A stretch of 64,000 bases of DNA from Anthostomella pinea (Eukaryota > Ascomycota > Sordariomycetes > Xylariales > Xylariaceae): contig CAUWAG010000007.1 in NCBI GenBank assembly GCA_963556695.1, positions 3,844,001 through 3,908,000 of the forward strand, written 5' to 3'. Below are positions 17,850-58,700 of this stretch, in pieces. The notes under the pieces were generated by a model. That model did not search any database. It had not been told where the DNA came from and saw only the letters and a list, made by a program, of their open reading frames with translations. The stretch's first letter is position 1. Each line of letters begins with the position of its first letter. Both the position numbers and the translations under genes were made by a program.

Positions 17850-19365
17850 CATATATAGGAGACCTCGCCCTCTTATTCTTATATCATTGATATGATTTGC
17901 TACATGCTACGATATTGTCTTGATAGTCGACCTGATCTTAGCCTATGATGACTTGAAGACTGCGATTATCATTGAGCTCAATGAGTCTCGCTACGATTGC
18001 AATGAATAGCGGTGTGGTCACTTTGTTTCCGGGACGATGCCTGAGTCTGGCGAACTGCCCAGGAGTTACCAAATGAGAGATGATCTTGGGAACCCGGCGC
18101 GGTGAGAGCACAGTCTTCCACCTCGGGAGGACAAATGTCCTTGCGCAGCTGACGGTACAGCCAGCGGTACAGACGGCGGATGACCTGTGGTGGTTTCTGG
18201 GAGGAGATCGTCATCAAACGAGAGGTATCGCACTAGGTTCTTGATGGAGTTCAGGTTTTGGATCGTCTCGATGGGACGGGTGGACCGACGGAGAGTGATA
18301 TGGTAGACTTGATGAAGTTTAGCGTCAGTTTAGAGGACGGCGGCCGGGCCGCAGCTTGTTTCAATCGAGACAGTCAGGCGTCTCGATATCAAGTCAGGGT
18401 CATATTGCCCTTGTTTGTGTCTTTGTCATATGCCTCCATTGTTATATCTATCATTTATCTCTGGCTCAAGCCCCTTTGTAGATAAGACTGTGGCTAGAGC
18501 CAGTCATCTTGATCGCCTGGTCATCGCGGTACAAAGAATACATGATTATCATTATTGTCCTTGTTGTCTATACCTGGGCGTAGCTCTTGGTTGTCGATAT
18601 GGCTGCCATTGGCAATCAAGCTTGCGCCTCTTTGGAGGTTGTTGGCAGCGTGGAGGTGCCGTGAACAATGTTGTTATTGTTTCGTCCTACTACAGCTGAC
18701 AGCTACGCGGAAGGCCTGATCTAGTTACAGGGCACGGACCACGTGACCTCCAACAGAGATCGATGTAGGGACAGAAGAAGACAACACCGCCGCTGGTCGG
18801 TACATAGCTGGCGCGGGTGGCATAAGCTCCATACCACTGGTGTTGATTGAGGTGCGAGGTGTTGGGGGTGCTCTTCCTTTCACTGCTGTGTTGCTGGCGG
18901 CTAGAGCCTGTCCTCGCAGGCTCTTGAGACCCAAGCAGCCACAACGGGATCTTTGTAGTGTGCAAGTAAAGGTCCGCCTAGTTAAAAGTAAAAGTGACAA
19001 GGACTACGCACTGCAGTCCGAGTATGATCTAACGGTAAGGGGCATTTGAAATGGTGAGAGAGATCTGCTGTTAACAAAGATAGATTGAACCTATAATGTT
19101 ACAGGTCCAGCTAAGGGTGACTACGCCACACTCACACAGTGTTATTGAGAACTGATGTGGCTGTAAGCGTGGCACAGGCCTCATTACCCACATCGGGGTT
19201 AGGCAGCGGGGTTAGGTGGCAAGGCAGCATTCCCAAAGTCGAGCCTCTTTGCACTTCCCCGCACCACATAAAAATGATCTCACGTTTCCACCTTTCTCAT
19301 GCCCAACTCTAGGTGACTTACCTCAACATGTATTTCGACAGTTCGCTTATATAAATGATTTAACC
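17850..19365. other. Intergenic, no recognised gene
   Basis: About 1.5 kb with several short frames (for example minus 18965-18690) but no family signal. The last 150 bp form the leader of the HET gene and include TATATAAATG shortly before its ATG. Confidence 0.5.
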
Positions 19366-22300: not shown

Positions 22301-22727
22301 CCAAGACAAGCTGGAGGAGGCAGAGAAGATGTACCAGCGGGCGCTGCCAGGCTTTAAGAAGGCGCTTGGGCCCGACCACACCTCAACTCTCAACATAGTC
22401 CACAACCTAGGCAACCTCTATTCAGACCGAGGCGAGCTGAAGGAGGCAGAGAAGATGTACCAGCAGGCGCTAAAGGGCTATGAAAAGGCGCTTGGGCCCG
22501 ACCACACCTCAACTCTCAACACAGTCCATAACCTGGGCCTTCTCTATAAAGACCGAGGCGAGCTGAAGGAGGCAGAAGAGATGTACCAGCGGGCGCTAAA
22601 GGGTTACGAGAAGGCGCTTGGGCCCGACCACAACTCAACACTCGACACAGTTAACAACCTTGGCAACCTCTACTCGGATCAAGGCAAGCTGAAGGAGGCA
22701 GAAGAGATGTATCAGTGGGCGCTATAG
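19366..22727 (+). pseudogene. NLR: HET - NB-ARC - TPR, HET domain cut by a stop
   Basis: Start chosen at ATG 19366, giving the standard HET N-terminus (MRLLKP ... YAILSHRWG). The HET block (residues 1 to about 230) includes WVDTCCIDK, YRNAARCYVYLDD and WFRRGWTLQELLAP. TAG at 20023-20025 falls inside the conserved AYSLLGIFDVQMPLIYGEG end; the same frame then continues. NB-ARC follows with Walker A GFGGVGKTQ and Walker B WLLIYDN. An intron at 20807-20853 restores phase, then a winged-helix-like segment leads to ten kinesin-light-chain-type TPRs. The frame stops at TAG 22725, but repeat-like codons (GKIKALRPDH) continue beyond. Such proteins sense non-self and trigger heterokaryon incompatibility or cell death through HET. 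As it stands it could yield a HET-only protein and a separate NB-ARC-TPR, or nothing. Confidence 0.85.
21520..22727 (+). repeat. Ten-unit 126-bp TPR-coding tandem array
   Basis: Ten consecutive 42-residue units of the form NNLGNLYSDQGKLKEAEEMY..., each coded by 126 bp with high DNA identity. The variable positions cluster at Q/D-K/E-L, the QGKEK/KGYEK patch and the HNL/NNL start. High repeat identity allows unequal exchange, known for fungal NLR repeat domains. Confidence 0.9.
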
Positions 22728-25428: not shown

Positions 25429-27770
25429 TTAGAAACGTGACAAATGAAAGAAGTAGACCCGACCGGACGAGCAACCGAGAACAAGGTTCGTGCCTCGCTC
25501 TGTTGTAAACACGGCAGACTCAGTTGGCCGGTACTCGGGAGGGAGCCAGAGGACCTCCTTGGAATGCTGTAAAATCCAAGCCCGATCGGGACTAAGAACG
25601 TAATCTCCCTGTTGCGCAGGCTTTTGGGGATGCGTATCGATATCCAAGGAAATCGACTCCTCTATGCAAATGTCGCCCGCGTCGGTATGGATCAGGGTGC
25701 CGGTCAGATCGAACGAAACGGTGGAGGTGTAGCCGACCTCATATGAAGAAAGGCACGCGCCCGAGGCCGCATCCCAGAGCCGGACGGTCTCGTCGTCAGA
25801 CGCCGAGACGACGCGCCGCCCGTCGGCCGAGAAGGCCGCCAAGAAGACGGGAGAGGTATGGCCCTCGAGGATCGCTTCGCACGCGCTCCATTGTTCCGCT
25901 AACTCTGTTTTGCACTTGACCCATCGTGGTGCCTCGTGCACGAATAGACCTCGCATTAAGCTCTGCGTTGAACTGAACACGAATGGTGAGGTGTACGCTT
26001 GAAGCGGCCGGCTCTCAATTGCCGGCCTGAAGGTTTGTAACAGACGGTAGGCGTCTTTTACGAGCGCCTGAAGTCCAGACGCCCCCGACCGCCCCTTTAT
26101 ACTATTAGCTCTGTAAGGCCGTGTAGCAGAAAGTATTGACTTACCTGCAAATGCCGTATTAGCCTCTCTAATGCGAGCATCCCTTCCGACATGCTCCGGA
26201 GTAGACTCAACGACTCGATCCAGTAGAGACCCTTTCCCCGCAGGAACCTGTCTGCCGCCCCGTACTCTTGTACGCTGTCGTCCCTACCCGGAGCCTTGCT
26301 AGCATCAATCAAGTGGTTGACCCAGTAGACACAGGAGTATCCTATCACCGCCAGTGGGTCTGGGTCAGGTCTCCGTCGAGGGACATCCTCAATAGGGAAG
26401 CCCGGGTCGTGCAGTCCGTATATGTCACGTTTCAGTGTCTGGGATACGGCCTCGATCGACCTGGAGAAGATTTGGCCATGGACGGCTACTTGCTGTTCGG
26501 GGGAAAGGATGACCGTTTTCTCTTTCGTTAAGAAGTCCTTTGCCGACTGGTGGACGAAGTAGACTATGTCCTCGCGAATAGTAAGGAACGAGCCACAGAG
26601 ACTGACAATCTCCTTTAGCGACTCGGCATCTCCTACCGTGCTGCCGTCTTCTTTGATGAACGTGGTGGACTCGGCAAGTGAGGGTGGGCGATAGGTCGTT
26701 GCTACGAGAGCAAGCACCTGCGTGCAAAGCTCGGCGTCTTCCGATTTGTGGATTTGATCTATCATCCGTCGATAGAGGGAATCGAGACCCGACGGGAAAG
26801 ACTTGACTTTCTGTAAAGCATTCCCTTGGCGTGTCTTCGCAAGTTCCTGGCAGACCAAGGCGACCCAGAGAAAAGTGCCGTCAGCGTTTGACGACAAGTA
26901 CTGGCGTACTTCGTCGGCGGTGTTGTCTCGATAGCTCTTCCGTTGTACAAGTTAGGACACCTTGTGCAAGATGTAGCTGTCCACAGCCGCTGCGACCGGC
27001 TTCGCATTGACTTTGAGTGATAGCCTGTGCGCCACGTTAAACAGCTCTTCTTCAATCTGCGGCCAGTTGCGGCTTGAGACGAGCCACTTAGCGCAAGTTG
27101 CTTGCGAGGTCTCGACAATCAACTCGAGCAGCTGCGGTAGGCCACCTATACACTCGTCCAGTGCGTCGACAACGAGGCAGACGACGTGCAGCTTCGGGTC
27201 GCGGAGCATATTCGTGAATATCTTGGATAACGCATACCAAGCATTATCGCCCTGGAACAGCCCCTCGCCAGCAACATCGTACTTCTTCTTCATATGCGAT
27301 ACGAGGGAGGCGTCTTGGTCGAGTAGCATGTATATCAAGCCGCGCAGCACGGCCGTCGCATTGTTGATGCGCTCGTCGGTAGCTTGGCAGAAGAAGTACG
27401 CTAGGCGGCTTCCTTGGGCGAGCCTCGTTTCGAGATGATCGACAATGCCACACAGGAGCATGGTCTTGCCCTTTCCCGGGTCGCCCTTGACCCAGAGCAG
27501 CCGCTGGTCCTCGTGGTCGCGCCATTGGCGGAAGTCAGGGTTGCCGAGCATCCAGACGTACGAGTCCGCGAGCAGGCTGCCCTTGGTGTCCTGGACGCGC
27601 TTCTTGTCATGGCGCGGGTCGGTGACGCGGAGGTCGATGAGGCATCGGTTGGCCGTCTGCTGGATGTTGACGATATTGCCTTGGTGGAAGGGTCCTCCAT
27701 GCACGGTGACATTCCCGCTGTAGGACGATCCGCCTTGGTATATGGATGGATCTAGGCCGTCATTCGCCAT
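25429..27770 (-). pseudogene. NLR: NACHT - WD40, one in-frame TAA
   Basis: Exon 27770-26145, an intron at 26068-26144 (GTAAGT...TTCAG) and exon 26067-25429 give 780 codons in total, but TAA at 26952-26954 interrupts after HKVS, where this family normally has Gln. The first 40 residues are Gly/Asn-rich (VTVHGGPFHQGNIVNI), followed by the NACHT lead-in DLRVTDPRHDKKR, Walker A GDPGKGKT, Walker B CLVVDALDEC and the downstream VYFVHQSAKDFLT helix region. The second exon has one clear WD repeat (SADGRRVVSASDDETVRLWD) and little more, so the sensor end is short compared with HET-E/NWD proteins. Likely role: a cytosolic receptor that switches on a partner, plausibly the SesB-like protein next door. 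Function depends on whether the stop is real and fixed. Confidence 0.85.
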
Positions 27771-28413
27771 TGTGGAAGACCTGACGTTTGCTCTTAGAAA
27801 ACACGAGTCTGGGATTTACGCGCCCGAGAGAAGCTAGGTGAGCTGCGCTGGCTTCCTTCAGAGTTGCGCAGCCGAGAGGCACAGGCACGCTCCAGAAGCA
27901 GGCTGGCCTGCAGGCTAGGCTGGAATGCGTCCGACTCCCCGAGCAGATAGCCTTGTGAACTCTTGGAAATACCCTGTTGTATGGACGAATAACCGCTGCG
28001 GAAAAGCCGGTGTGCCGTGCCGATGGCGGTTATGCGATGCGTCCTGGGCCCAACTTAAACCGGCTCGCTATGGGCCTCGAGACTGTGTGCGCCTCGCCAA
28101 GCAGAAAGATATCATACTGGGCTGCCAGTCTTTTAGAAATCGCACCAGGAACTGCCTTGGATAGTAGAAAGCTCACCGCATGATCTCAAAGCAGCATGGT
28201 GGGACAGCGTAACAAGCAGCTATTTCCGAGCAGAGCCTCTGGTTCTGCCGTCGCCAGCCGCTCTGAAACCCGTTTTACAGCTTGATTGCGGTGGTAGGAA
28301 AAGGGCATTGTCATTGTCAGCTAGTGAGATGCTTTCCGGTACCTGGTACTGAGAGAGCCTTACGTCTTGGCTTTATTTCAATAGCAACGGGCTTACTGCC
28401 TCATTGAAACCGG
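27771..28413. other. Intergenic, upstream of NACHT-WD40 gene
   Basis: No gene recognised. A stretch around 27840-27900 (AGCCGAGAGGCAC...) partly resembles the leader of the SesB-like gene near 24965 (AGCCGAGAGGCGCCAAGGCACAC), hinting at a shared or duplicated promoter. Confidence 0.4.
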
Positions 28414-30969: not shown

Positions 30970-33900
30970 ATGGTTGGCGTCCTTGACCGACAAGATGTTC
31001 TGGCTGGGCGCGCCTGGCCGCTCGCAGTGGCCGCTATTGCCATCTTCCTAACTTCGGCCCTTTATCGCTACACGTTGTCTTTTAAGGAAATGCCGCCTAC
31101 AGAAAGACCTTTCCGATATCTGACCCTGCGTATCGACGAAATCCCGATCGACACATCCGATGCAGCCCTGGACAGCGAACTGAGGGCGATAATTACACAA
31201 GCCCCAGGCTTGCGGGACACCGTTCGCAGCGTCAGCCGCATCGCTCTAGCTCCTATGGACAGCCGCTGGGCCTGCGCTACTGCCACTTTCCACACATCAA
31301 TCCCAGTAATCGAGTTGGTGCGCCGCCTACAACAGGCCAGCGGAGAGCGGAAGTACAAGTACGACTCAGACTTCTACAACATCACACCGCTTTATATGGG
31401 CGTAACCCGAGTCGACGTCGAGTGAGACTACCTACAATCATCACTTGACTGCCGTTTCAATTGCTGACTTGTCGTGTCTCACCACCAGCATCGTTGCAGT
31501 GCCCGGCCTTGCAAGCCACGCGTTCGGGTTGTGGAAGTCTCCTAGCAGCAACGACATCTGGCTGCGAGATTACCTGCCCGCGGATATACCCAATGCGCGA
31601 GTACTCATCTACGGCTATGACACGAAGCTGTTGAAGAGCGATTCCAGGAAGTCGATCGAGAACATGGGGTCATCTTTTCTCGAGGAACTTGTAGCATTCC
31701 GAACCAGTAGCGAGGTATGTACGTCCGAGCCTAGATCTACGGTACAGTGCTCATCTCAAGGTAGAGTACCTGCCGTCCTATAATCTTCATTGGACATAGC
31801 CTGGGCGGACTCCTTGTCAAAGAAGTAAGCCGATCGTTACGGGACGCCCGATCGCCCGGCTAATTGCGACTAGGCATTACTATACGCCCAGAAGAAATCG
31901 TCCATCGAAGCCAATCTCGAACTGACCCGCGCATGCTGTGGATTACTCTTTTTTGGTGTTCTAAATCTCGGGCTTAGAAATGAGCAGCTACAGAGTCTTG
32001 TTTATGGCCAACCTAACGAGAAGCTAATTCACGCACTACTCGTTGATCGCGACTCCGAGCCCTCTGATTATCTGGCGAGAATTTCTGGTGATTTTTCCAA
32101 TCAGTGCAAAGGAAAGTACCGAGTCATCTCCTTTTTCGAGACAAAGTACACCCGGACTGTGCAGGTAAGATCTACGCAGTTACCCCTATTGGTAAAATGC
32201 TCAAAGTTATCTAGATACAGGCTGATGGTCGCATCACGAAAACCGGTCCGCAGATGCTGCTGGTGACAAAGAAGTCCGCTACAAGCACAGGCTTGACAGC
32301 GGAAGCTGACGAAGACAATGTCAGCCTGGACGCTGATCACTCAGGGCTTGAAAAATATGACTCAAAAATCCGTGGCATGTATCTCGTTGTGCGGCAAAGG
32401 CTTGAGACGATTGTGGCCAAAGATGTACCTTGCGTGGCAAGAAGCTTTCGTGATAGTACGCATAGTACATCCCCAGAGCAATACCTTCTTATCTCCCTTT
32501 GCTCTTTTGCTGATAATAATCACACGCAGTAGATACCAAACTAGAAGGTGAGTCGGCCCTTTGACTCGGATGAAACGGCCTAGCTAACTGGTGTAAAAGA
32601 TGTTCTGGCCGAAAATCCACGAGCTGAAAAATGTCACTCCGATCTTTTCGAAACGGATCCTTTCGAGAATATGAAATCTCTGCAACGCAAGAAGGGTGAC
32701 CGCGCCAAAGGCACTTGCAAATGGATAATCGAGACAGAAGAGCTCGCTTCCTGGCTCGGCCCTGAGCACGCGGTGGTATCGACTAATGTTCTCTGGCTGC
32801 ATGGGAACCCAGGGACTGGGAAGTCCACTATGGCCATTTGCCTTGCCGAGGTACTCCGGGAGCAGTTCCGCCACTCAGACCAGAAAACCCTTTCCTGTTT
32901 CTTCTGCGATTCCAGTTTCGACACCCGTAGGTCAGTAACGTCAGTGGTCCAAGGGCTTATCCTGCAGCTCATCCAACAACATCCGCGACTTCTCCTCGAC
33001 TACCTCCTGCCAAGATACCTCGAGCGCGGAAAGAAGATCTTTGATTCATTTGACGCTTTGTGGACTGTTTTGCACAAAATGGCCGCCGATGAAGCTACCG
33101 GCCATAAATTCTTCATTATCGATGCCTTGGATGAGTGTGATCAAGAATCGCAGCAGATTCTCATGAAGCAACTGCAGCAAGATTTCCAACACAAGAGCTC
33201 TGCAACCAACATCCAGCTACTCGTCACAAGCCGACCTTATACAGAAATTCAAGAAGGTTTAAAGGCGTTTTGCAACAAGGACCTAGCCTCATTCCCCGAG
33301 TCAAAGAAAGATATTGATCGCTTTATTAGCGAAAAGGTTATAGAGCTTGCGGCCAGAAAGCAGTACACGGACAGCGTAAAGAAGCAGGTCACAGATATCT
33401 TGGAAGAAAAATCCGAGAGCACTTTCCTCTGGGTCGGCTTGGCATGCGGGGAGCTAGACCAGGTTCCTTCGAAAAGTGCGGTCGACCACCTGAAGAAGAT
33501 GCCGTCTGGGCTGAATGCCTTGTACAAAAGACTACTTGACAATGCTCTTAACGCTCCTTGGCAAAACGCCAAAGTCAAACAAATTCTAGGTCTCGTCGCG
33601 GTATCGTTTCGGCCACTCAGCGTCTCAGAGTTAGCTGCAGCTTGCCAGACTTACCTTGACGAGGACCAAGAGACCCGCATTCAATTCACTCGGGATGACA
33701 TTACTACCTGCCGGCTTCTGGTCGTCATTCAGGATCAGAAGGTTCTTTTACTGCACCAGTCGGTAAAGGATTTTCTCCGTGACAGTGCGCAACCGCTTGT
33801 TCAGAAAGCAGATTCCCATGCGGAAATGGCATACAAGTGCGTGGATCAGCTTATCCGAGATTCTGAGCTGGTTAAGGATCGACCACAGTGGGAAGAAGAG

Positions 33901-36666
33901 TTCTCACCTTACGCATCTGATTACTGGTACTCGCACGCTCGCCTCGCAGGAGACGTATTCGAAGTCAAACAACCGCAAGCGACTTTTTTCGAAGTCATGT
34001 CTCTATCTAGAGACGCTTGGCTTCATCGAGCCAGTGGCCGGTACAGGGTTCATTTGACACTCCCAAGCCGAGCCTCAATTTTACACATCGCAGGATACTG
34101 TGGCATCCCGGCCATTTTTTACTACGTATATAACAGTCCACATCAGCAGATGGCTTCCGATATTATGGCAATATTAGAGTCGGACGATAGTCGCAACAAA
34201 ACTCCACTGAGTGCGGCAGCCATTGGTGGGAATGAGATTGTAATCACACAATTACTAGAGTACAAGGCACAGATGAGTATCAAAGTGGCCAAGGCGGCAG
34301 CAAGGAACGAAGAGAATGGCATGGAGGTGATGGCGCTGCTTCTTGACCGACGAGGAGACGAGGTCCCCGTCACAGAAGAAGTGGTCAAGGCGGCAGCAGG
34401 GAACAAGAGGCATGGCAAGGAGGTGATGGCGCTGCTTCTTGACCGACGAGGGAAAGATGTCCCTATTACGGAAGCAGCAGTTTCTACTATTGCCCGAGGC
34501 TTCAATAAGGAAAGAATGGCGCTGCTTCTTGACCGACGAGGCGACGAGGTTCCCGTCACAGAAGAAGTGGTCAAGGCGGCAGCAGGGAACGAGAGGCATG
34601 GTAAGGAGGTGATGGCGCTGCTTCTTGACCGACGAGGAGACGAGGTCCCCGTCACAGAAGAAGTGGTCAAGGCGGCAGCAGGGAACAGAGGCAATGGCAA
34701 GGAGGTGATGGCGCTGCTTCTTGACCGACGAGGGAAAGGTGTCCCTATCACGGAAGCAGTAGTTTCTACTATTGCCCAAAGCTTCAATAAGGAGATAATG
34801 GCGCTGCTTCTTGACCGACGAGGAGACGAGGTCCCCATCACACCAGAAGTGGTCAAGGCGGCAGTAAGGAATACAGAGCATGGCAAGGAGGTGATGGCGC
34901 TGCTTCTTGACCGACGAGGAGACGAGGTTTCCATCACAGAAGAAGTGGTCAAGGCGGCAGCATGGAACGGAGGCAATGGCAAGAAGGTGATGGCGCTGCT
35001 TCTTGACCGACGAGGAGACGAGGTTCCCGTCACAGAAGAAGTGGTCAAGGCGGCAGCAGGGAACGAGAGGAATGGCAAGGAGGTGATGGCGCTGCTTCTT
35101 AACCGACGAGGAGACGAGGTCCCCGTCACTGAAGAAGTGGTCGAGGCGGCAGCATGGAACAGAGGCAATAGCAAGGAGGTGATGGCGCTGCTTCTTGACC
35201 GACGAGGGAAAGATGTCCCTATCACGGAAGCAGTAGTTTCTACTATTGCCCACAGCTTCAATACGGAGATAATGGCGCTGCTTCTTGACCGACGAGGGAA
35301 AGATGTCCCTATCACGGAAGCAGTAGTTTCTACTATTGCCCAAAGCTTCAATAAGGAGATAATGGCGCTGCTTCTTGACCGACGAGGCGACGAGGTCTCC
35401 ATCACAGAGGAAGTGGTCAAGGCGGCAGCAGGGAACAGAGACAATGGCAAGGAGGTGATGGCGCTGCTTCTTGACCGACGAGGAGACGAGGTTCCCGTCA
35501 CAGAAGAAGTGGTCAAGGCGGCAGCAGGGAACTATTGGTATGGCAAGGAGGTGATGGCGCTGCTTCTTGACCGACGAGGGAAAGGTGTCCCTATCACGGA
35601 AGCAGTAGTTTCTACTATTGCCCAAAGCTTCAATAAGGAGATAATGGCGCTGCTTCTTGACCGACGAGGCGACGAGGTCCCTGTCACAGAAGAAGTGGTC
35701 AAGGCGGCAGCTGGGAACGAGAGGCATGACAAGGAGGTGATGGCGCTGCTTCTTGACCGACGAGGGAAAGATGTCCCTATTATGGAAGCAGTAGTTTCTA
35801 TTATTGCCCAAAGCTTCAATAAAGAGATAATGGCGCTGCTTCTTGACCGACGAGGAGACGAGGTCCCCGTCACAGAAGAAGTGGTCAAGGCGGCAGCAGG
35901 GAACGAGAGGCATGGTAAGGAGGTGATGGCGCTGCTTCTTGACCGACGAGGAGACGAGGTCTCCATCACAGAGGAAGTGGTCAAGGCGGCAGCAGGGAAC
36001 TATTGGTATGGCAAGGAGGTGATGGCGCTGCTTCTTGACCGACGAGGAGACGAGGTCTCCATCACAGAGGAAGTGGTCAAGGCGGCAGCAGGGAACACAG
36101 GCAATGGCAAGAAGGTGATGGCGCTGCTTCTTGACCGACGAGGAGACGAGGTTCCCGTTACAGAAGAAGTGGTCAAGGCGGCAGCAGGGAACGAAGGAAA
36201 TGGCAAGGAGGTGATGGCGCTACTTCTTGACCGAAGCCTACTGACCAGATCGTTTATCTCTAGTGCTGTTTTACGTATTGCTGCTGCTTATGGCCAACTC
36301 GACATTCTTCGCTTCCTGTCCCGCCAAGCCTGCATCGTCACTGTTCAATAGGAGGACTTTGCCATCGCCAGACTGTATAACGCGGCAGCATCAGGAACTA
36401 CAACCACAGTGAAAAAGCTTCTCCAGACCGGAACACCACCTGATATACAGAACATATGGGGCATGACACCATTGTGGATCGCAGCGGCACATGGTCATGA
36501 ACAGGTAGTCCGCCTACTCCTGACTACGGACAAAGTCAGCGTTATCTCGGAAACAACTATCCGAGATGCACCTTATACTCAGCCGTCTTACGACCCAGGG
36601 GACACTGCTCTTATGGTAGCGAGAAAGAATGGGCACAACAGAATCGCTGAGATTCTTGAACAGTGA
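30970..36666 (+). pseudogene. NLR: SesB-like hydrolase - NACHT - ankyrin-type repeats, late TAG
   Basis: Exons 30970-31421, 31489-31714, 31765-31824, 31874-32164, 32221-32455, 32530-32547 (18 nt) and 32600 onward agree in phase and give 1677 residues to TAG 36349-36351. The same frame continues with ankyrin repeats (WGMTPLWIAAAHGHEQVVRLLL) to 36666, so the TAG looks premature (one change from CAG or TGG). Order: N-terminal membrane segment, SesB-like hydrolase (GHSLGG, DADHSGLEKY), NACHT (Walker A HGNPGTGKST, Walker B FIIDALDECD), helical region with LLLHQSVKDFLRD, then about 20 near-identical MALLLDRRG repeats and terminal ankyrins. In fungal NLRs the repeat end senses and the hydrolase is the output domain. 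Even if the TAG ends translation, only the last roughly 100 residues are lost, so it may still work. Confidence 0.88.
34320..36230 (+). repeat. About 20-unit ankyrin-type tandem array of 90-96 bp, two subtypes
   Basis: Units start with MALLLDRRG. Subtype A (32 residues) continues DEVPVTEEVVKAAAGN-xxx-GKEV; subtype B (30 residues) continues KDVPITEAVVSTIAQSFNKEI. Subtype B occurs at units 2, 5, 10, 11, 14 and 16, the others being A. Variation in A is concentrated at the three residues after GN (KRH, ERH, RGN, TEH, GGN, YWY, TGN, EGN) and at EVPV/EVSI. Confidence 0.92.
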
Positions 36667-38003: not shown

Positions 38004-38204
38004 CTGCCATATGGCCTATGACATCAATCTACTGACTTGTCTTTCCCAATAAAGTCACGCTGATTAAACCTGTATAACATGGAATACACACTGCATAATG
38101 CCAACATCTATCAAACAAAAGCGCCATTCAAACTCTAAGAAAACGCAACAAAGACACATGAAATGCCTTATGAACAAGCCTTTGACAAGACACTGTTCAC
38201 CCCG

Positions 38205-40069
38205 TTATACCTCCCAGCCTCCTTTTAGCATAATAGCCCAATGCTGTGAGACAGCCCCCTCGCTTCGGCCCAACCTGTGCGCAATCCATGGCCATCCCTT
38301 CTCTTCTATTACCCAGGCCCGTAGTTGTCGTTCTTCAAGTTCTGTCCATCGACTTCTCTTGACCACTGTGTCGTCCTCTTCTTCTGAACCGGCACTTTCG
38401 TCCGGGACAGAGTCATAGCTACCTGCCTGGCTTCCTGCATCGCTATCGCTCTTGTCGCTTTTGATGCGTCCGTTTCGCATGCTGTTTAGAGGTATTGGCG
38501 TCATGGAAGGAATAACAGAGGGCCTGCGAGCCACACCGTTATGGGAGCGGTTCATATCTGCAGCCTGCCCGCCTTGTGTGGCAAGTGTCTGGGTGGCATG
38601 GTTGCAAATGAAACCAATAACCAGCTGCATTATGGTCATACTGTTCTCCGTTTTATGTATAACTTCAACCAAATTGCATAACTCGAGGATATACCCAGCG
38701 GAAAAGCCACCAGTGTTACAACTTGCCGCAAGTGGTTCTGGGACTGCAACAGTAGGAGAGGCAAGTTCTCTTAAGCTCGGTACTTCGTGACCAGGCCTGC
38801 CACTACTTCGAGTGCTTGCATGAAGGTTGTCGTATTGTAGATTTCGGCTTTGAAATTCACGTGACTGAACTCGCTCGGTATCTGCTACGCCCTCCGAGAT
38901 AGGCGTTCTCTGTTTGGTTCGGTCACGGAGGAATCGGCCACTGGCTCGTCGCTTCTCTATCGGTAGGTTTGCGGGCGGACTTTCTGCACGCCGCTTTCGA
39001 GTACCGGATGACCGCTTGGTTTGGCTGGGGGCATGATGACTGATCGACCCGCCCAGCTTGCCTACTGGCATTCGAGAAGGCAGCAAGCGCAAGCTTCTTG
39101 GCGGTGTTGCCCTTTCTGTAATAGAGGAGGGGGCCGTCGGTAGATCAACAGATGATTCAGCCCGAGGGTGTATTTTGGTTCCTTCAATGTATTCCTTTGT
39201 CTGACTAGAGCTCAAGACAAGGTTATCAGAGGACCTCTCTCTATCAGATTCTGGATGGTTGTCACGAGACCTTATGCGGCGGGGTCGGGAAATGTCGTTC
39301 AGAACGGGCTCGGAAGCATCGGGGTTCGGCATTAGAGCACCACTGCTAGGGTCGGCAGCCAAGGGTTTTTGGCACAGTTGAGGAGATGGACCTTCGGAGA
39401 AAGAGGTGACCGGTATATCTGCAGATAGTTTGGCCGCTGGAGAACGGGCTTCAACATCCTCGAGGTCGTTTGTGCAGTCCAGGCTCGACGCAGGTGTGGC
39501 TTGAGACCAGGTAGAGTCGTCGGGGTTGGCATTCTCCGGGCTGCTATAATTATTGTTACAATCTTCAATACCTGCTATTGGGTAACAAGATCAGTCAAAG
39601 CTTTCTCGTGATAAGTATATTACTTACACATATCCACAATGTGATTAATGTCATGGCACGCTGGTGGCTGTTCCGTAGAAGCAGCGGCTTGGCAAAGGCT
39701 GATAGTACTGTCGTCCAAGTCTGTACCACCAGCATTTCCAAGGAATGCGCTGGGCTGGCTTAAAATGCGTGCCGGGTCTTTATTGGATGGTTTCCCGTGA
39801 CTCAAAGCTCCAGTGTCCTGTTCTAATAGGGTTTGAACAGTGAAACCTCCCCAAGGGGACCGCTGGACCCTCTGGGTCTGAAGGCAGTTGAGTGCCTCAT
39901 TGTCGACTGGAGGGCCAAGATTGCTGTGGATTGAAGGCATCTGGAGGAAGTTCATATGCTGATGAGGGTTTGTTGTTGATGTAAGATCAGCACTTGTTCG
40001 CTTCTGCTTCGGCTTCCGCTTCGGCTTCGGCTTTGGTGGCTCCCATGCCTTGAATTGCAGAGTAGACAT
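38205..40069 (-). CDS. SANT/Myb-like domain protein, intact
   Basis: ATG 40069, exon to 39628, an intron of about 56 bp (39572-39627; acceptor could be 3 bp earlier), then exon to TAA 38205, giving about 602 residues with no stops. The N-terminus is basic and Pro/Lys-rich (PPKPKPKRKPKQKR, a likely nuclear signal), the middle is low in complexity, and the C-terminus after an acidic run (EEEDDTVV) carries one SANT/Myb-type helix set with spaced Trp (SRWTELEERQLRAW, KGWPWIAHRLGRSEGAVSQHW). Such single C-terminal SANT domains are common in fungal genomes. SANT/Myb genes are also reported as accessory genes of Starship transposons, notable here given nearby DUF3435 and NLR genes. A broken copy of its last exon lies at 54980-55260. 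Confidence 0.75.
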
Positions 40070-48396: not shown

Positions 48397-50218
48397 ATGT
48401 ATGCTCATTTTCTTCGTTCTTCCCGCAACGATGCTGATATCGATAATAACACTAAGGAACAGGCCATGGCGAAACAGAGATGCTGACAGGCACGTCTCAA
48501 CCATTCGTGAAACCTGTGGCTGCTGGGCAAAAAACGACAGGACGTAAGTTTCGCTGAAGTGAGAGTAGACGTATTCCAGTGGAGAGAGCAAGGCGTCGCA
48601 CTGTGACGTGTAGCTGATCGACGTCAGCACTTCCGGTCTTTACGGTATGAGGTCATCACGTACTCGTCGGGTTTGATGTTAATGTGCTTTGGAAATGCGT
48701 GACAGACAATCTTTCCTGCCTCTGCCTTCCAAAGCGGCGTCTCGAGTCGGGACCGTAGAAGTTCTGACCTGATGACATCGCCCTGTTTCTCGACACGCTC
48801 TGGACCCGTGCTGCCGATATCCGTCTTACGCCCACCAAGTGAATCGCCTTCCACACATATTTCTTGGTGACTGGCCTCGCTGGCTTTCGAAACGGCTCGG
48901 TGCTCAGGTTGCCTTACGAACAGGTCCAATTCGGATTGGCACGAGGTCCCCATGACCCGGCGGCTCTGAAACTGGTCGCTCATATTTTGATCTTTCAGAA
49001 CAGGCGCAAGAAGGACACGATACAACGCAATCAGGATGAAAAGTAAGCCTCCCCCCCCCCAAGACCTGCGGTGGGCTAACCTCTCTGCACGATAGGGTTG
49101 CGTTCAGCATTAGCGTTGTTCCAGCCCACACCTTTTGCCTCTTGAGCCTCCTTGTCGGTCGCGCCCTAGCCGATGATGCTTTCGAGGCGGAGTACCGGAC
49201 TCTTGACGAGCTGCTTGACAGGCCACGTCTGGAACCGGGTATCGGCTATCTAAATATGCCGCTCAAACAGGACATGGGGAAGATACCAGCCATTTTATTA
49301 ACGCAAGAGAAGCTGAATGAGATATGGAGTCGTGTCTGTCTCGTCTCTGAAATGCGACAGTACAGAGCCTTATATGATGCGTGTCGGTGCTGCCGGGAGG
49401 TTGAACGGTACGTAACGAGACTGACCTGGCGCGTCTTTTTACTAACGAGATTCAGGTGCACTTGAGCCCTCCCTACGTGACTACACCTTGTTGCACTTTT
49501 CGACCATGTTCCAACGGAGCTACCAGCCTCAACGCCTGAAAGAAGATCTAGCAGGGATCTCTTTTGGAAGCCTGGGTGGCAGCAGTGGCGACGAGAAGTT
49601 AATCCACGTTCTGCGTAATGCATCTCTCACTCGCGATGAGCGGGCCCATGTTAACCCAACTGCGGAAGATATGGCCGAATTCGAGCAGCAAAAGGACATC
49701 TGAGAACTGCGTTAGGAGCTTCACAGAACCGTCGACTCCGCTACTCGAACCAATATTGGACATCAAATATCTAGCATCATCAAGTCGCTATCTAAACTGC
49801 GTGTGAAACAGCTCCGGCAGGAATATTTCATAGCGGCCGATAGGAGGCGAGGCGATGGACTGTCGACGGATGACCTCGCTCGGGCGCGGATGATCTCGCT
49901 CGGGCGCCGGCGGATGTGCAGACGCCAGTGACGCGTGTCGGCCAATTTCTGCGCCTCGAATGTAAGCAGCAACGGGACCCCAGGCGCTTGCGTGCAGACT
50001 ACGCAGGACTTGTATCTCCTCGAAAAGCCTGTTCCTGCCAGTCGCGGACGATCTTTATCATGTACTGAGGTCTGGAAAGTGATCGGGTCATCGTGGATCC
50101 CATGGGACGAGATGGACGGGAAAGACGGGAAAGACTCTCCGTCAGAAAGTCTCCCAGACGTGGAGGCCTGCCGAGGATGAAGGACGATGGCAAAATGTCT
50201 AGGAACATGTCAACTTGA
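48397..50218 (+). pseudogene. Second DUF3435 gene, decayed
   Basis: Pieces in order match a different DUF3435 subfamily from the copy at 44201: YAHFLRSSRNDADID at 48400; LDTLWTRAADIRLTP, GLAGFRNGSVLRLPYEQVQFGLARGP at 48800-48960; an intron at about 49042-49095; VAFSISVVPAHTFCL, LVGRALADDAFEAEY at 49096-49220; then FGSLGGSSGDEKLIHVLRNASLTRDERA and ADRRRGDGLSTDDL at 49560-49890. The Arg of GFRxGSxLRL corresponds to the first catalytic Arg region of the recombinase fold. Several stops and frame changes occur, among them TGA/TAG near 49700-49715. The 3' end is approximate. Confidence 0.75.
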
Positions 50219-51471
50219 TGTGAACTCTGTCTATAGTGAACCCTTGCTGCAAGACGTCGCGGCGCGGCTATACTGGGTTGCGGTTTGGATAAGTTGCGGA
50301 TTTAGCTCATGGTTTAGGTTGACTTAATGATATTTTCTTAGCGACATCGAGCAGGTTGGCTGCGGGACTCGGGTCTTGATGGGGCATCCGCTATCTTGTC
50401 TGGTATATTGGATTGGTCTACTTCGTAGCAGAATCATCTTCCGAGTTCTGTGGTACATATCCAGGAGAGTGACTCTTAATGGAGTGTCATGGCGGCGCAT
50501 GGTACAACATAGGCAAGTTGCCTTGTTTTCCTGGCCGCCCGTCGGGATACGTCCTAGTATTCACACATGTCAGCGTCCTTCGCTTATTCTAAAGGAGTCC
50601 CGCATCAAGCGTCCCGTCTACAGATCCTCTAGTTCAGGTATCTCGATCGATACGTGACAGAGCCTGGACGGCACGGGGTAGCTACGGTCTTGTACACCGA
50701 GATCCGTAACCCGACAAGGTCCAGCCTTGCCCCTAACAGTGTTCCTACCTCATCACCACTCATACGTTGCCCTTGTGCCTCGCTACTTTGGACAGTCTCT
50801 TCACGCAGCTGTGATGTAGGTAAGAATATCCAAGACAGTATCCGCAAATATTGCCATACTAGTGTTGCTATCGGCCATGGTTATTACCTAATAGAGCATG
50901 CAGTCAAAGACTCATAGGCCTGTCTATCTGTCAGGCGTGAAGGGAGGCCCGGTAGTCGCCGTCGAGCCAAACCCCGATCATGTCACGGGCACCACAAGTG
51001 CATCAAGCCGTCAAGGCCCAAGTCGCGAAAGGTACATCAATCAAAGAAATGCCTACATAGTACGCGTTGCCGAACCCTTCCATGTAAATAGCACGAAAAT
51101 ACTGCATCAACGCCACTAGGCGACAACCCCTTAACCTCTCATTAACTGACTCGATGGCTTGGTCATGGTCTAAACACACAATGCTTACTTCATATTGATA
51201 CTTCGAAACAGTTGATACAAATGGAGGTTTATGGCGGTTCAATTTGTGTTTGGTTGCTGCTAATTCTGCATATGTATCCCTTGAACAGATGCTATGGTTC
51301 GGGGTCTACACGACTCCCATACTTGCTTTCCCGGAGTTCTCGTCATTTCTCTCAGCTTGCTGGGCAAGATTTGCAATCTCTACATCTATTTCCTTCTGAT
51401 AATGACAGTGTCCCGAGCGTTTTCTCCATCCTCCCACCTCTATTGCTACCTCCCTTTGCAACAATCCCATG
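50219..51471. other. Unassigned region between DUF3435 gene and effector gene
   Basis: Short frames (plus 50376-50657, plus 50898-51119, minus 51242-51003) without recognised families. A third partner of the effector-receptor pair was sought here and not found. Confidence 0.4.
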
Positions 51472-52374
51472 TCATCCAAACATGCGAGCGAAGGAAGCCG
51501 CATCTATCTGCCCTTGGAATCCCCTGCTGTTGTTTTGTGCCGACAGCTTTCCGAATGACTGATCCATACCCTCTTGAGCTTCGCCCACTATCCCTTGCAT
51601 AGCAAAAGACTGATTTATCTGCAGGTCTCCAAAGTTCTGGCCGGTCTGCTCTGCTTGAGTGGCTTTCAGAGTAGCTTCGTAGGCTTTTTGCAGGGTTGCA
51701 AACCGCCGGAGGCTAGCTTGTTCGTCACCACCCACGGTGTTTGGCACAGTAGTATCTCCTTCCGGAGTAGCGGACTTATTGGATAGCTCCGTAGCTAAGG
51801 TGGATAGAACCTGTTCCTGGGCTTGGAACCGTATGTTTAACCTTTCAACACTGTCCGAGGTGTTATGAGAGACGATCCTGGAATAAGCAAGCCTCATTAA
51901 TATTGATCAACTGTGATTTAAGAGTGGTAAGACGTACAATATGATCGTCTCTATAACCAAGGAGATGGTTCTTTGACAACTGCTTGATTCATTGTTGAAT
52001 TGGGCAATCTGTGATTCGTGCAAGTTTACAAGGCACCTATCACGGATACTGAATCTCGAATTGGTCGAATGGCTCGTGTATTTCGTGATTGTCGTACTGA
52101 ATCTGTCACATAGCTCTTGGGTAGAGGTTAACGTCTTATCAAGTTCAATTGATTACAAAACAGAGCCAAACCTGGCCTGCAAGTCTTGATTTGTCGACAG
52201 TGTTCCTATGAGGGTGTCCAATGACTCTGGTGTCCCTGCGACAAGGGTCTTCGAGTTGGCGATAGCTTGCAGTGCCTCGGCTAAGCCATCGATCACCTTG
52301 TAAACGGCTTGAGCGCTCTGTGTGGCAAGGCCAGCAACGGCAATTACACTCGCGGTGATGCTTAACGGATCCAT
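51472..52374 (-). pseudogene. HeLo-like (PF17111-type) effector with C-terminal motif, one TAA
   Basis: ATG 52374, exon to 51938, intron 51878-51937 (GTACGT...TTCCAG), exon to 51472: 281 codons. The start MDPLSITASVIAVAGLATQS is the signature of the fungal STAND N-terminal / HeLo-like domain, an all-helical membrane-targeting cell-death module. TAA at 52153-52155 falls after GSVL, one transition from CAA. The C-terminus carries two related copies of a short motif: FGDLQINQSFAMQGIVGE, then FGKLSAQNNSRGFQGQI. The second closely resembles the N-terminus of the divergent NLR at 52694. By analogy with HET-S and NWD2, the C-terminal motif would be the amyloid-forming signal receiver. With the stop in place only the first 73 residues would be made. 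Confidence 0.75.
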
Positions 52375-52693
52375 GGAATTGACGATTATGCGCTATGGTA
52401 AGCGCGGGCAAGGAGAGTGTCTTTGTATGTCGACTGTGAGAATTAATATTCAGCCGCAAAACCCGGTGGCACTCTGATTCGCTGGTACTAAGGACACGTG
52501 ATTTTCTCCGCATAGGGTCATTGTTAACAGAAGGCTGCCGAGAATCTATTATATCCTATAAGACCATTTTATCTTTAAAGGCGCTTTTTTATAGACTTTA
52601 TAAACTCTATATGACAATTGCAATAGTCGAAATATCTCCTAGTCGAACCCAGACACAAATCAGCCCACTTATTAGACGTCTACTAGGTCCACC
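52375..52693. promoter_or_regulatory. Shared divergent promoter of effector and NLR
   Basis: 319 bp separate the two start codons. The middle is AT-rich (TATATCCTATAAG, TTTATAAACTC) and contains no open frame, consistent with a bidirectional promoter. Confidence 0.5.
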
Positions 52694-54755
52694 ATGTCAG
52701 AAGCGGTGCGGGAGCGATCGGCAATAAGCCAGCAGTTTGGCAGCACTACAGCGAGCGACGGAAGCCGCGTATTTCAGGGGAACATCCAAGGAGATTTTTA
52801 TCTGCACCGTAGGTTGCCATAATTCATCCCAAAAAAAAACAGAAAAAAAAAACAGTCATGTTTTCCACCCGCTTTATTCTAACTGATAACGCTCTAGGTA
52901 GGTTGCCACTACTCCCCATCCAGGCGACACTAACGCTAGGTTCAAACCAGAGCCCCTAGAACCCCTAGAGCGACTAGAAACCCCACTGAACCCGACCGCC
53001 GTCATTCCTTTCAATCAAGACAAAGACTTCGTCCAACGGGACACAATCCACGACCAGGTTCACCGCTTATGCAGCGAGCCAGCCTTGCGAACTGCACTAG
53101 TTGGCTTGGGCGGAGTCGGCAAGTCGCAGATCGCCATCAAATATGCCTATCAAATCTAAGAACAATCGCCCGAGACATGGGTTTTTTGGGTCCACGCGAG
53201 TAGCGCACCTCGTTACAAACAGAGTTTCCGAGACATTGCAGACTACCTCAAGCTACCCGGCCGGACGAGTCCTTAAAATAACATCTTCTAACTGCTATAT
53301 AACTGGCTACACGGCGAGAAGAGTGGGAAATGGGTTCTTATGCTCGATAATATCGATGTAACAAGCTTTTTACTTGATAACACGGCCGATCAGAGTCAGC
53401 CGCTCGTTTTATACCTTCCTCTCTACCAATACGGCTCCCTCCTTATGACAAGCAGAAACAGAGATGTGGCGTCTAAGCTAGTCGAACTGCGTAATACCAT
53501 TACGGTCGAGCCTATGAATCGGGCAGATGCGTTCACCTTAGTGGAGAAGAAGCTGGGAACTCTGGATAAGCAGGATGACATTAAGACTGCAGAATCGCTC
53601 GTCAAGACACTCGGATACATGCCGTTAGTAATTGTCTAAGCGACAGCCTACATCACGCATAGAGCTCCGCATTATTTTATGCGACAATATGTCGACAAGT
53701 TTACACAGAGCGACCGGAAGAAAGCAACTCTTCTTGACTACGAAGCCGGGTAATTACGGCGGGACCGAGAGGCCAAAAACTCGATCATCATCACGTGGCA
53801 AATCTCATTTGACCACATCTGTCAAACCACACTATCTGCAGCCGACCTACTTTCGCTCATGAGCTTCTATGATCGCCAAGGTATTCCTGAGAACCTCTTA
53901 CAGAGTCTGGACGAGAAAGAAGGCCCCATAAGTATACCAAAGCGACACCAACAGAGCCTTGCTTTGTACGATTGGGCCAGCGACCAAGAACCAAGCGACG
54001 AAAACGTTGAATCGGATTCTACCATGGATAATCAGTTCAAAAAGGATGTCTCGACTTTGCGCGATTACTTGTTTATCTCTGTAGTTAAAGACAGAAAGAC
54101 ATTTGAAATGCATAACTTGGTTCAGCTGGCTACGAGACAATGGCTTGAAGCCGCGGGACGGCAGGAGCAGTGAAAGTCTCAATTTATCCGTTGCCTCGAC
54201 ACCCGGCTCCCAACCGGAGCATATGAGAACTGGGCAATATGCCGGGCGCTTTTGCCGCACACCGTATCGGCGGCAGCACAGCGGCTGAAAGACAGAGTGT
54301 CATTAGAGGTATGGACTTTGGTTCTTTATAAAGCTGTATGGTATTTTATAATAATAGGCCAGGGATCTAAGGCGCAAATCATGGCAGAGGATGCAATGAA
54401 GTACAGAACAAAGATACTTGGGAGGATGCACGAGGAAAGTCTTGCTGCTATCAAGATAGTAGGCCAAGTGTGTAACCTAAGAGGCCAATGGAGCCCAGCG
54501 GAGAAGCTGTTTCGGGAAGTGATAGAGACTCGCAAGCTGAAGCTCGGGCCGGATCATACTTCCACGCTGACCAGCATGGCCAACCTGGCGTCGACGTACA
54601 GGAATCAAGGCCAACTACCAGAAGCTCTTGGTTTGATACGGGAATGTGTACGGGTTGGGCGAACTGTCTTGGGCGCTCAGCATCCACATTATCTATCTTT
54701 CCTGGGAACATTACATACCTTGGAGCTCAGGTATGCTGGCGTCGGTGCCAATTAA
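52694..54755 (+). pseudogene. NLR: N-terminal signalling motif - NB-ARC - TPR, multiple stops
   Basis: ATG 52694; exon 1 ends 52808, intron 52809-52923, then one long exon. Residues 16-37 contain SDGSRVFQGNIQGD, matching the effector next door. NB-ARC follows: DFVQRDTIHDQV, Walker A GLGGVGKSQ, WVFWVHASS, Walker B KWVLMLDNID, then LLMTSRNRDVASKLV. The C-terminus has TPRs (RKLKLGPDHTSTLTSMANLASTYRNQG). In-frame stops: TAA 53157, 53274, 53289, 53637 and 53752, TGA 54171; at five of these the family residue is Gln (TAA) or Trp (TGA). A one-base insertion in a T run at about 53700 and a loss near 53760 offset each other. It is a dead receptor, recently intact by its sequence conservation. Confidence 0.82.
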
Positions 54756-54979
54756 TGGCTAGAGAAGCGTGTTTGAACTACAGAATATTTGGTAAGGACT
54801 TAGCCATCTAGTAATTGATTTCATTATTATTCTATTTAATTATTCGAATTCTTAAGTGATAACATGTATCTATTTATTGTTTAAGAGGCAGAGGATCATA
54901 ACCGCTACCTTAATGGCATGGCTTGCAGCCCCTTCATTGTCACTTTTATAACGCTAGCATCTAAAAACAGCATGTAAAA

Positions 54980-55260
54980 CAAACGATTCGAAAGCGTCGA
55001 GAGTAATAGCGATACAGAAAGCCAGACAAGTAACTGTGACTCTATCCCATATAAAAGTGTTAGTCCGGAAGAAGAGGACGACACAGTGGTTCAACAAAGT
55101 CGATGGACAGAGCTTGAAGAACGCCAACTACGGGGCTGGGTAATATAAGAGAAGGGATGCCCATGAATTGCGCACTGGTTGGGCCGAAGCAAGGGGGCTG
55201 TCTCACAGCATTGGGCTATTATGCTAAAGGGAGGCTGGGCGAGATAACGGGTGAACAGTG
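54980..55260 (+). pseudogene. Broken duplicate of the SANT gene C-terminus
   Basis: The plus frame reads EEEDDTVVQQSRWTELEERQLRGWVI, a TAA, then a second stop (TGA for a Trp codon) and GAVSQHWAIMLKGGW. This is nearly the complement of 38205-38440, with similarity continuing past the stop codon into the 3' flank (GGGTGAACAGTGTC). It begins near 54985 in the Ser/Asp-rich part. A duplicated and mutated copy of a piece of the 38.2-kb gene. Confidence 0.85.
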
Positions 55261-55573
55261 TCTATTTGTCGAGGTCTTATGTCTCGGACAGCATTCAAGT
55301 TTTAAACCTTTAGGTCCGGAGCCTTGTACTACCGGTTGTCTTCAGATACGGCTTGGCCTTCGAGATTCGGACTTTATCGCGGACCACAGAATGCTGTGGC
55401 GCTGATCGACGGTGACCAGAGGCCGTTCGTATGACTTTGGGTGGTACTATTTGCCATCGATTGTACGCTTTATCTTTATCACCGTTGCACAATGACGTGC
55501 GGATATCTGCCAACGCAACACAATGTTCTCCTTTCAACGGTCAACGGGTGGGAGGCATAGTTGTTGGAGTGTA

Positions 55574-55748
55574 GCAGCCAGCTCAGGATCGTAGAGTTGA
55601 GTTGAGTTGAGTTTATTTCACGCCGTAGGGGCTCTAGGCCTCAGATCCTCACCTGCACGCCAAATGTCTACAAGGATCTGAGGCCTAGAGCCCCTACGGC
55701 GTTAAATAAACTCAACTCAACTCAACTCTACGACCCTGAGCTGGCTGC
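55574..55748. repeat. Near-perfect 76-bp-arm palindrome on a LINE 3' tail
   Basis: The arms 55574-55649 and 55673-55748 are inverted copies with two mismatches and a 23-bp loop. Each arm holds (TCAAC)n tail units, TAAATAAA, and the CCCCTACGGCG box also seen at the end of the LINE at 8601, plus about 21 bp of flanking sequence outside the LINE tail (GCAGCCAGCTCAGG). The loop plus right arm also matches the plus-oriented LINE end. Confidence 0.92.
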
Positions 55749-58700
55749 GTCCCTCCCCCGCGGCCGCAGTCAGCAAGCAGCAGATTCGATCACACCCCTC
55801 AATGACCCCTTCGATGACGAGGTTCTCCCACTTTATGGCGAGTCTGATGAAGAATATGACTCGGAAACTTGGAAGGAGATTCAAGAAGATCAGGGAGAGC
55901 GTAGGAGTCGACAACCACACAGCAACAGTCTCACTACCCAAGCAATCGAAGTTATCCTAGACGAGGTTGTCCAGCGTTACGAAGCTGAATGGTGGGAAGA
56001 GAAGGAGGACGACCTACGGCACAAGGCACTCAAGACATGGCGTAGCCTCCGGGAGGGTCCCTATCGCCAATCTCTTTACAAGATATTCGAGGAGCTGCGG
56101 CATATCGACGAGCGCATTGCTGCCTTGTGGCGTCAGACTGCCACATGCCCATAGAGCACAAAAATCGAACTGGTATGTGGCGCCGCGAACCTGAAGCCTT
56201 CGGTCTGAGATCGACTCCGAGCCAGATGGCTCCAAGACCTAGCAAACCAGAAACACAAACCCAGTCGCGCAGTAGCGCTGCCACCGCGGCGCACGGGGAA
56301 AGCTGCCAGCACCAGTTTTGAGGACCATAGCACCGACACTGGTAAAGACCTAACGAGCGACTCCGAGGGGATGGTACAAACACATCGCAGAAATACAGCT
56401 TCCTGTGCTCCCAAGACGCGAAGTGCTGCTGAGCCTATAAAGCTAGCGCCTCGGGAAGTGGTTTACATTAGTAGTGACGACGAATCTGACGATGATCAGT
56501 CCTCACCCGCATCTCCCGACGGAAATGCCATACCGATCGATAACATAGATGATAACGCCAACGAGGAGGGACACCAAGACGAGATCGAAAATCTTGGCGG
56601 GCAGTTTGCCAATCGCACTATCTCTGCAAAAAACTGGACAAGCCTATGCCGCCTGTTTCAGTGCCGAGAGAATATCACTGAGCACAGACCGGTTGACTTT
56701 AAGCTGACTATCTCCGCCTACCAACTTTACGCCGTCTGGTGGCTGGTGACACAGTTTCCAATACGGGGTGTGCCGGGCGGCTGCCTTGGTGACGAAATGG
56801 GTCTAGGCAAGACGATCGAGGTGCTTGCCGCCTTTGTTATATTCGCTCTCATCAAGGCGAATCATGTAGAAGTACAAGACTTTTAGACGGCAGGTCGCAC
56901 CGTCGATGGCCGTACACATCTGTCCCAGGACCAAAAGAAAATGATGGACTCCGTCTGCCTTAGCCAGCGCGTCTCACCTTATGGTCTACTTTGTCCTTGT
57001 GTTAAATCCGGACAGACATACCTGGTGGCCACCATGCTGGCGTCGCTGCCCACCATATGCTTCGTCCCTCCGAGCTCGATCCACGGCTGGCATTAAGAGT
57101 TTAAAAAGCTTATCGACGCAGGCCATCCTATCATGCAGCATCTCCACTTCTCCATTCTGTATAACGACTTCAAAGGAGATGAAACATATCATCACACCAG
57201 CGACCATGTTCGGCAGACCATGGCCAAGGCCACAAGGTGCTACGTCAACCAACGAAACCAACAACTTGAATGTCATCTCGAAGGCTGAGAGGGGCTTAGC
57301 AACTGGTTCTTGTTGGTCAGTTCGTCTGGGGCACCGGGGCTACACAAAGCTTATAACGTCAAAGGTGTCAGGTACAAAGCCAAGGATGATACAGACCACA
57401 AGGGCAAGGTGTTTATTACTAATGGTCTTGCTGCATTTTTTGTCTTTTTTGACGAGGCGCATACCTACTGCAGCTCTCTATCAAGTCCGACTCAGCCGTT
57501 CGCCCTGCTAAAAACTATCACCGAAAAGTCCTAGGATCCCACGGTCGCCTTCGCCATCTCGGGCTCCATCTCGGGCGGTGGTCCTGGCCAACTGACTAAC
57601 ATCATTGACCACATTCTTCGAGTCAAGGGTGAACAACAAGAAGGCAAGCCCAGCATCGACGGTGTTACCAACGTAACTAAGCTTGAAGATAAGAAAATTA
57701 ACTGGGACTACCTGCTGCAAAAACACTATATTATAAGCAACCAAAAGACCAAGGATGAGGTGAACAAACTCAAGAAATCAATCAGCGAGTTAATAAAGAA
57801 CCTTGTCCCCCATGTACTCATGGCCCGTCGCAATATGGACACCTTTCGCGGCCAGACTATTGGCGATGCCAGACGAGAAATTGTCGTACAATGCGTCGAG
57901 TGCAATATAGTTAATGGGGCTGGCCGCAACGCATTTTACAAGCTGACTGCCAACGTCCAGGCATATGTTAGAAAAGCTTTTGACGAGAGGCACAATGCTT
58001 GGACAGTCGACGGAAGGCGGGGTCCTGAACCTACCTAGCACAGCGTTGAACTCGAGTTCTTTGGTGGAGAGGGTGCCGCAGCGATGAAACTGGGCAGAAA
58101 AGGTGGTGATATCTGGACCCAGCTGCTTCGCGCGAACGTCTACCCCAAAGTCGCTCGCCTTTATCTGGACAAGCTCGTTATAGAGGAGGAACTTAAATGC
58201 AATAGCATCAATCGCCATAGAGATGAGGCCTCCTTGCTTGTAAGTATTGATGCCAGCAAAAACGACGTGCAGCGGCAGTTGGCCATATCCCCGTTCTGGC
58301 CATATCGCACACAGCTCATGAAGCAATCTTTAAAATTTGCCCAGCTCTGCCAATATATAAACGACATGATGGCATACAGGGACCGCCGGCCCGGCGCCGG
58401 TAATGATCCTGGCCCTGCTGATGGCACGAACATCCGACACATGATTGTCTTGTCTGACACGCCTGTCTCCAGCTACATCACCTTCATGTTACTGTGCGTC
58501 AAGTATCCGAAAGCCAAGGTGATGCTGATCAACGCACGCACACGCAAGGTGGCCACTGAGAAGACACCTGGATACGGGCGCAGAGAAATGATCGAAGACT
58601 TGATGTCCGACTGCACGAATCAGTCGCGCAATAAGATCATTGTCTCCACCTACCGTATCTATGAGACGGCGCTAAACATGCAACGCGCAAATTACTGCGT

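Follow-up and report, generated by a model that had tools for sequence, protein, structure and literature searches.

Two divergent and damaged genes of Anthostomella pinea, one for a HeLo-like effector and the other for an NB-ARC-TPR receptor, have a short motif in common, and this raises the question of whether they are what is left of an amyloid signalling pair and, if so, of which class. The genome searched comprises 53,736,082 bases on 16 contigs, and the window (that is, the whole stretch of 64,000 nucleotides that was analysed) is C5:3844001-3908000; A. pinea strain F5 is reported to come from a lichen thallus (PMC10763133). We conclude, with a probability of roughly 0.93, that the window pair is a decayed, duplicated copy of an NLR amyloid signalosome of the HELLF/FNT1 type. 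This reading builds on homology, on the architecture and layout of the two genes, on their adjacency here and in annotated pairs elsewhere, on the conservation of the motif and on the decay of the copies, each of which is observed directly. In the open-licence PMC literature, we found no publication on HELLF in Anthostomella and likewise none combining Xylariales with HET-s, NLR and amyloid.

The effector is a homologue of HELLF

The pair comprises the following features, given in window coordinates.

51472..52374, minus strand: HeLo-like effector pseudogene (HELLF homologue), exon 1 at 51938-52374 and exon 2 at 51472-51877
51505..51561, minus strand: second amyloid-motif repeat r2, from the 6EKA alignment, shuffles and profile
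51577..51639, minus strand: first amyloid-motif repeat r1, aligning to PDB 6EKA together with r2
51878..51937, minus strand: effector intron, 60 nt, GT..AG, containing the second apparent stop; frame kept after its removal
51910..52374, minus strand: HeLo-like domain PF17111 (current Pfam name PigL_N), from Pfam
52375..52693, no strand: divergent intergenic region of 319 bp between the two start codons
52694..54755, plus strand: NB-ARC/DUF7779/TPR receptor pseudogene, ATG at 52694, divergent from the effector
52730..52786, plus strand: N-terminal amyloid motif r0, one copy, from shuffles and profile
52809..52923, plus strand: presumed receptor intron of 115 nt, containing the N-terminal stops
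52902..53156, plus strand: P-loop piece (GLGGVGKS) overlapping the intron end, read from the sequence, without a Pfam match
53292..53636, plus strand: NB-ARC part at 19.2 bits (cut-off 23.5, not reached) and E = 7.9e-4
53754..54170, plus strand: DUF7779 (winged-helix-like part), 35.7 bits, cut-off 27
54174..54752, plus strand: last open piece with tetratricopeptide repeats near its end, TPR_10 E = 2.5e-21, clearly exceeding the Pfam cut-off

A preliminary description of the locus had reported stops in both genes. For the receptor this stands (six in-frame stops, that is, one TGA and five TAA); in the effector, which reads on the minus strand from a start codon at 52374, there is a single true in-frame stop (TAA at 52153-52155), the other apparent stop being intronic, and the intron has an identical place and identical ends in two paralogues on the same chromosome (L021 and L022). 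The piece before the effector stop matches PF17111 at 21 bits, below the cut-off of 27.2, and the piece after it at 31.4 bits, above the cut-off. Using the open effector of L021 (280 residues), we found 57 homologues at E <= 0.001, including, at 46% identity over the full length, Podospora PODANS_3_9900, which is the gene hellf (Pa_3_9900; PMC7885112). None of the 57 is by name an A. pinea protein; the effectors of L021 and L022 (C5, approximately 3.568 and 3.704 Mb) are open, spliceable and of HELLF type, and may lack an entry in the public gene set.

The tail of the effector carries the main evidence on class. Residues 79-143 of a 144-residue piece align to PDB 6EKA with E = 9.1e-18, covering both repeats, and a profile of the effector family does so with E = 1.4e-31; by its title, this entry is a structure of HELLF prion amyloid fibrils determined by solid-state NMR. 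The preliminary description had left it undecided whether the motif belongs to a known HRAM class or to a new one, and this match decides for the former: the class of the pair is already known, and the pair is a degenerate further example of it. We regard a new amyloid signalling class, outside HRAM, PP, sigma and PUASM, as highly improbable. It would fit with the lack of any Pfam amyloid-motif match for r0 or the effector tail at E <= 10 (for r0 this includes the sigma motif, such short models missing much); however, the match to the solved HELLF prion domain refutes it for the tail, HELLF itself is filed as an HRAM (PMC7885112, PMC7889193), and Pfam misses most HRAMs, the reported share matching the HET-s signature being 38 of 155 (PMC4518210). 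Sigma, PP and PUASM were themselves set aside as the class of the motif once the tail had matched PDB 6EKA.

As to the number of the HRAM class, the text and Table 1 of a 2015 study place the Podospora HeLo-like protein in HRAM4, with Q at position 18 (PMC4518210), a 2017 review gives a P. anserina pair as its example of HRAM5 (PMC5485727), and the 2021 papers assign HELLF to HRAM5 (PMC7885112, PMC7889193). HRAMs are described in the 2015 study by G19, a positive residue (R/K) at 15 and hydrophobic residues at 5, 8, 10 and 16, with Q18 for HRAM4 (PMC4518210); by inspection, r2 of the window agrees at these positions (G19, R/K15, hydrophobic 5, 8, 10 and 16), its position 16 being G.

The preliminary description had also proposed a weaker second copy of the motif just before r2. 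Within the window sequence this claim finds no support, as the score of r1 against r2 is not significant (reached by 1,576 of 20,000 shuffles), and it is the family that rescues it: r1 is supported as a repeat because r1 and r2 align jointly to 6EKA and the pattern of r1 is present in 37 of the 45 homologues (among the 57) that were examined. The r2 pattern fits 41 of the same 45. As F5, S14, F17, Q18 and G19 are set by this pattern (and the same five by that used for r0), their constancy adds no evidence; among the positions free to vary, Q3 is found in 41 of 41 and G6 in 40 of 41, and position 15, at which R, K, Q or E was allowed, is R in 37 and K in 4 of the 41. An AlphaFold2 model of the orthologue P0002 predicts three strands per repeat and an all-helical N-domain. 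Foldseek, run with this model, gave 6eka the top probability (0.90) among the best 50 rows, but with E = 0.22 and a TMt of 0.42, and the predictor may have learnt 6EKA; no HeLo/MLKL fold, including HET-S HeLo or MLKL, was among the best 50 rows of either structure-search list.

The receptor carries the same motif

The pattern FG-x(3)-A-x(3)-SR-x-FQG-x-I, proposed at the outset as common to the effector C-terminus and the receptor N-terminus, is indeed present in both, in r2 (51505-51561, minus strand) and in r0 (52730-52786, plus strand). Its places were given correctly and its exact termini were not: 10 residues follow r2, and r0 begins at residue 13 counted from the ATG at 52694. A chance likeness of two unrelated, decayed neighbouring genes would be compatible with both window copies being broken and with r1 being weak here, yet shuffling, which the preliminary description had named as a check, speaks strongly against it, since, in sets of 20,000 shuffles each, 2 shuffled versions of r0 and 5 of the tail attained the local BLOSUM62 score of r0 against the tail. 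It is further opposed by an independent profile, an HMM of r2 built from 41 effectors of other species, which ranked 2,035 six-frame stop-to-stop pieces of the window with the effector at the top (E = 6.2e-12), followed by the receptor N-terminus (E = 0.0029) and then by a piece at E = 1.6; the value for r0 is modest, and the same HMM scores r0 of several other-species receptors weakly. Finally, the same pair occurs at two further places on the chromosome and in other species (see below), and this recurrence refutes coincidence, to which we assign a next to negligible probability.

With an effector homologous to HELLF and a receptor of the architecture described for FNT1, the earlier comparison of the pair with HET-S/NWD2 holds. 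The r0 pattern fits 19 receptors in addition to that of the window, with Q3 in 20 of 20. At position 15, 10 of the 20 have R, 9 have Q and 1 has L; this position counts against the class fit, as R or K is reported there for effector motifs.

Sequences following the receptor were also noted. Just 3' of it, 54886-55251 is an 80% inverted copy of 38201-38566, at the end of the open reading frame 38205-39590, and parts of this stretch follow the ends of NLR genes in L022 and in two further loci (L023 and L024). Approximately 0.8 kb downstream of the receptor, 55566-55756 forms a near-perfect inverted repeat of 84 nt with a 23-nt spacer, a third, partial copy of which is at 8601-8688.

Adjacent pairs recur in other species

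A search of other genomes for adjacent pairs, suggested in the preliminary description, returned at least five annotated pairs whose locus tags follow one another, four in Apiospora (PG995_004599/004600, PG995_006314/006315, PG999_004428/004427 and PG990_015306/015307) and one in Pestalotiopsis (PFICI_10698/10699). Among the receptors of these five pairs, two (P0060 and P0062, that is, PG995_004600 and PG995_006315) have DUF7779 and TPRs listed, without an NB-ARC match. By eye, r2 of the adjacent pairs is too conserved for covariation between r0 and r2 to show.

Beyond strict adjacency, we used contigs of the same size as a proxy for a shared contig. Of the 121 receptors gathered, 15 lie on contigs of the same size as one with an effector, and 13 of these contain r0, compared with 6 of the 106 others (p = 2.6e-11). 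Conversely, among the 39 effectors that come from named genomes, at least 13 have an r0 partner on a same-sized contig; that a partner was unseen for the other 26 means little, because a proxy was used and 120 of 782 receptor matches were listed. The HELLF/FNT1 pathway is thus placed in Anthostomella (Xylariaceae), Apiospora and Pestalotiopsis contribute annotated adjacent pairs, and other Xylariaceae, Stachybotrys and Microdochium contribute pairs that are probably on one contig.

The cassette was duplicated and its receptors decayed

Two further copies of the pair lie on C5, at approximately 3.567 Mb (L021) and 3.704 Mb (L022), with effector tails 95% and 93% identical to that of the window and with DNA identities of 92-95% across several kilobases. 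Window positions 48979-54889 form a segmental duplication with these two loci on the one chromosome, the number of TPRs varying among the copies. In L021 and L022 the effectors are open once spliced and the receptors have 5 and 3 stops, respectively; the cassette has accordingly been duplicated as a unit in which the receptor is broken in all three copies and two of the three full-length effectors are open. Lesser remains comprise a truncated effector head to head with a truncated r0 (L027, C9), a similar effector N-terminus (C7:256416), a broken r0 (L026, C7) and a 104-bp relict of an effector end (L025, C16), and these counts from genome searches are lower bounds.

To characterize the decay, we took private changes across 51401-54500 by a two-of-three vote among the window, L021 and L022 copies. 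In the window copy, 107 of 130 such changes are C>T or G>A, with CpG (44) and CpA (36) sites making up most of them; the corresponding figures are 42 of 67 for L021 and 66 of 114 for L022. The window substitutions appear RIP-like, a pattern that repeat-induced point mutation would leave. The window copy itself is very probably dead. Genome searches with P0001 and P0064 revealed no r0 receptor that is intact, those recovered being broken or truncated, so that in the A. pinea genome the pathway is probably headless or dead, though two of three full-length effector copies remain open.

Related receptors carry a PP-type motif

Two further loci in the genome, L023 (C9) and L024 (C7), each have a HeLo-like effector gene of two exons, both open, divergent from a receptor whose TPR frame is long and open. 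In L023 the effector lies at 5092-5949 (plus strand) and the receptor starts near 4811 (minus strand), L024 being likewise arranged; the receptor of L024 is annotated as P0098, with 1,074 residues. The L023 effector matches PF17111 (E = 5.8e-20), and its tail matches Pfam Ses_B with E = 5.9e-4 and 20.1 bits, below the cut-off of 23.2. In both loci the effector tail and the receptor N-terminus have FGxxNSGFQAG, a motif of PP type, in common, and we take them to be two HELLP/PNT1-like pairs. Their receptors are 79-80% identical to that of the window in the winged-helix piece and 41% identical in the second NB-ARC piece. Of the 121 related receptors, 70 contain NxGxQxG within the first 80 residues (shuffled mean, 0.1), 19 contain r0 and none contains both; as the two occur on related receptors and never together, related backbones carry different amyloid motifs, and a single genome offers HRAM and PP pairs on such backbones. 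Tentatively, one winged-helix/TPR sensing half might be common to the HRAM NLRs (broken in the copies found) and the PP NLRs (open, and beside an open PP effector), with sensor halves exchanged between amyloid pathways and with the HRAM receptors having decayed in a RIP-like manner while two HELLF-type effectors stayed open; we consider this possible, if somewhat less than even.

The open effectors also bear on whether the pathway is headless. Conceivably, the two open HELLF-type effectors are still used, through another receptor (for example, a PP-type NLR with the winged-helix/TPR half in common) or a non-NLR trigger, as two of the three full-length copies are open and the searches that yielded no intact r0 receptor did reveal two receptors with open frames and a PP-like N-terminus. 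Yet cross-seeding is reported to be absent even between HET-s and HELLF (PMC7885112), and open effectors may merely have escaped mutation so far, so that we judge continued use to be improbable and retain the reading of a decayed HELLF/FNT1-type pair.

Other genes of the window were noted as well. At 19216-22727 (plus strand), a HET domain (PF06985), NB-ARC and TPRs lie in adjoining open frames and mark a further NLR-like gene. At 25429-27815 (minus strand) there are NACHT (NPHP3_N) and WD40 pieces with a glycine-rich N-terminal stretch ending in HQGNIVNIQQT, which might be another short signalling motif. At 32584-36351 (plus strand), a single open frame of 1,255 residues encodes a NACHT (NPHP3_N) protein with 19 DUF7104 stretches.

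Proposed mechanism

For Podospora, the papers cited here establish that the receptor templates the amyloid of the effector and that cell death ensues. By analogy, in the A. pinea lineage the NB-ARC/TPR receptor would have oligomerized upon sensing a ligand, after which r0 would have adopted an amyloid beta-solenoid fold and templated the HeLo-like effector at its two homologous repeats near the C-terminus; the templated effector would then have moved to the membrane and killed the cell. Ligand sensing, templating and killing in this lineage would thus presumably follow the same mechanism as in Podospora, and amyloid behaviour of the sequence in the window copy is suggested by its likeness to the HELLF prion domain. 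No principle is changed by the present locus, the mechanism being already established in Podospora.

Comparison with known systems

The closest known system is HELLF/FNT1 of Podospora anserina, which likewise joins a HeLo-like effector with two C-terminal repeats to a neighbouring NB-ARC-TPR receptor that bears a single repeat at its N-terminus. FNT1 has been described as an NLR of NB-ARC-TPR type, the N-terminal R0 of which is homologous to R1 and R2 of HELLF, and its N-terminus is reported to form fibrils and to induce the HELLF prion (PMC7885112); the amyloid structure of the HELLF prion domain has been solved (PMC7885112, PMC7889193). The window pair differs in being duplicated on one chromosome and decayed, and FNT1, which is absent from the 120 receptor matches listed, is likened to its receptor by published description. 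HELLP/PNT1 (PP motif; Podospora and Chaetomium) also places a HeLo-like effector beside an NLR of NB-ARC-TPR type, but PP is a single RHIM-like motif with an NxGxQxG core, which by inspection is absent from r0, r1 and r2 of the window pair. HET-S/NWD2 (P. anserina, HRAM1) resembles the pair in having two effector repeats, one NLR repeat and adjacent genes (PMC9815663), whereas NWD2 is a NACHT-WD40 protein and the HET-S domain is HeLo, not HeLo-like; the repeats of HELLF and HET-s are reported to be only 17% identical and not to cross-seed (PMC7885112, PMC7889193).
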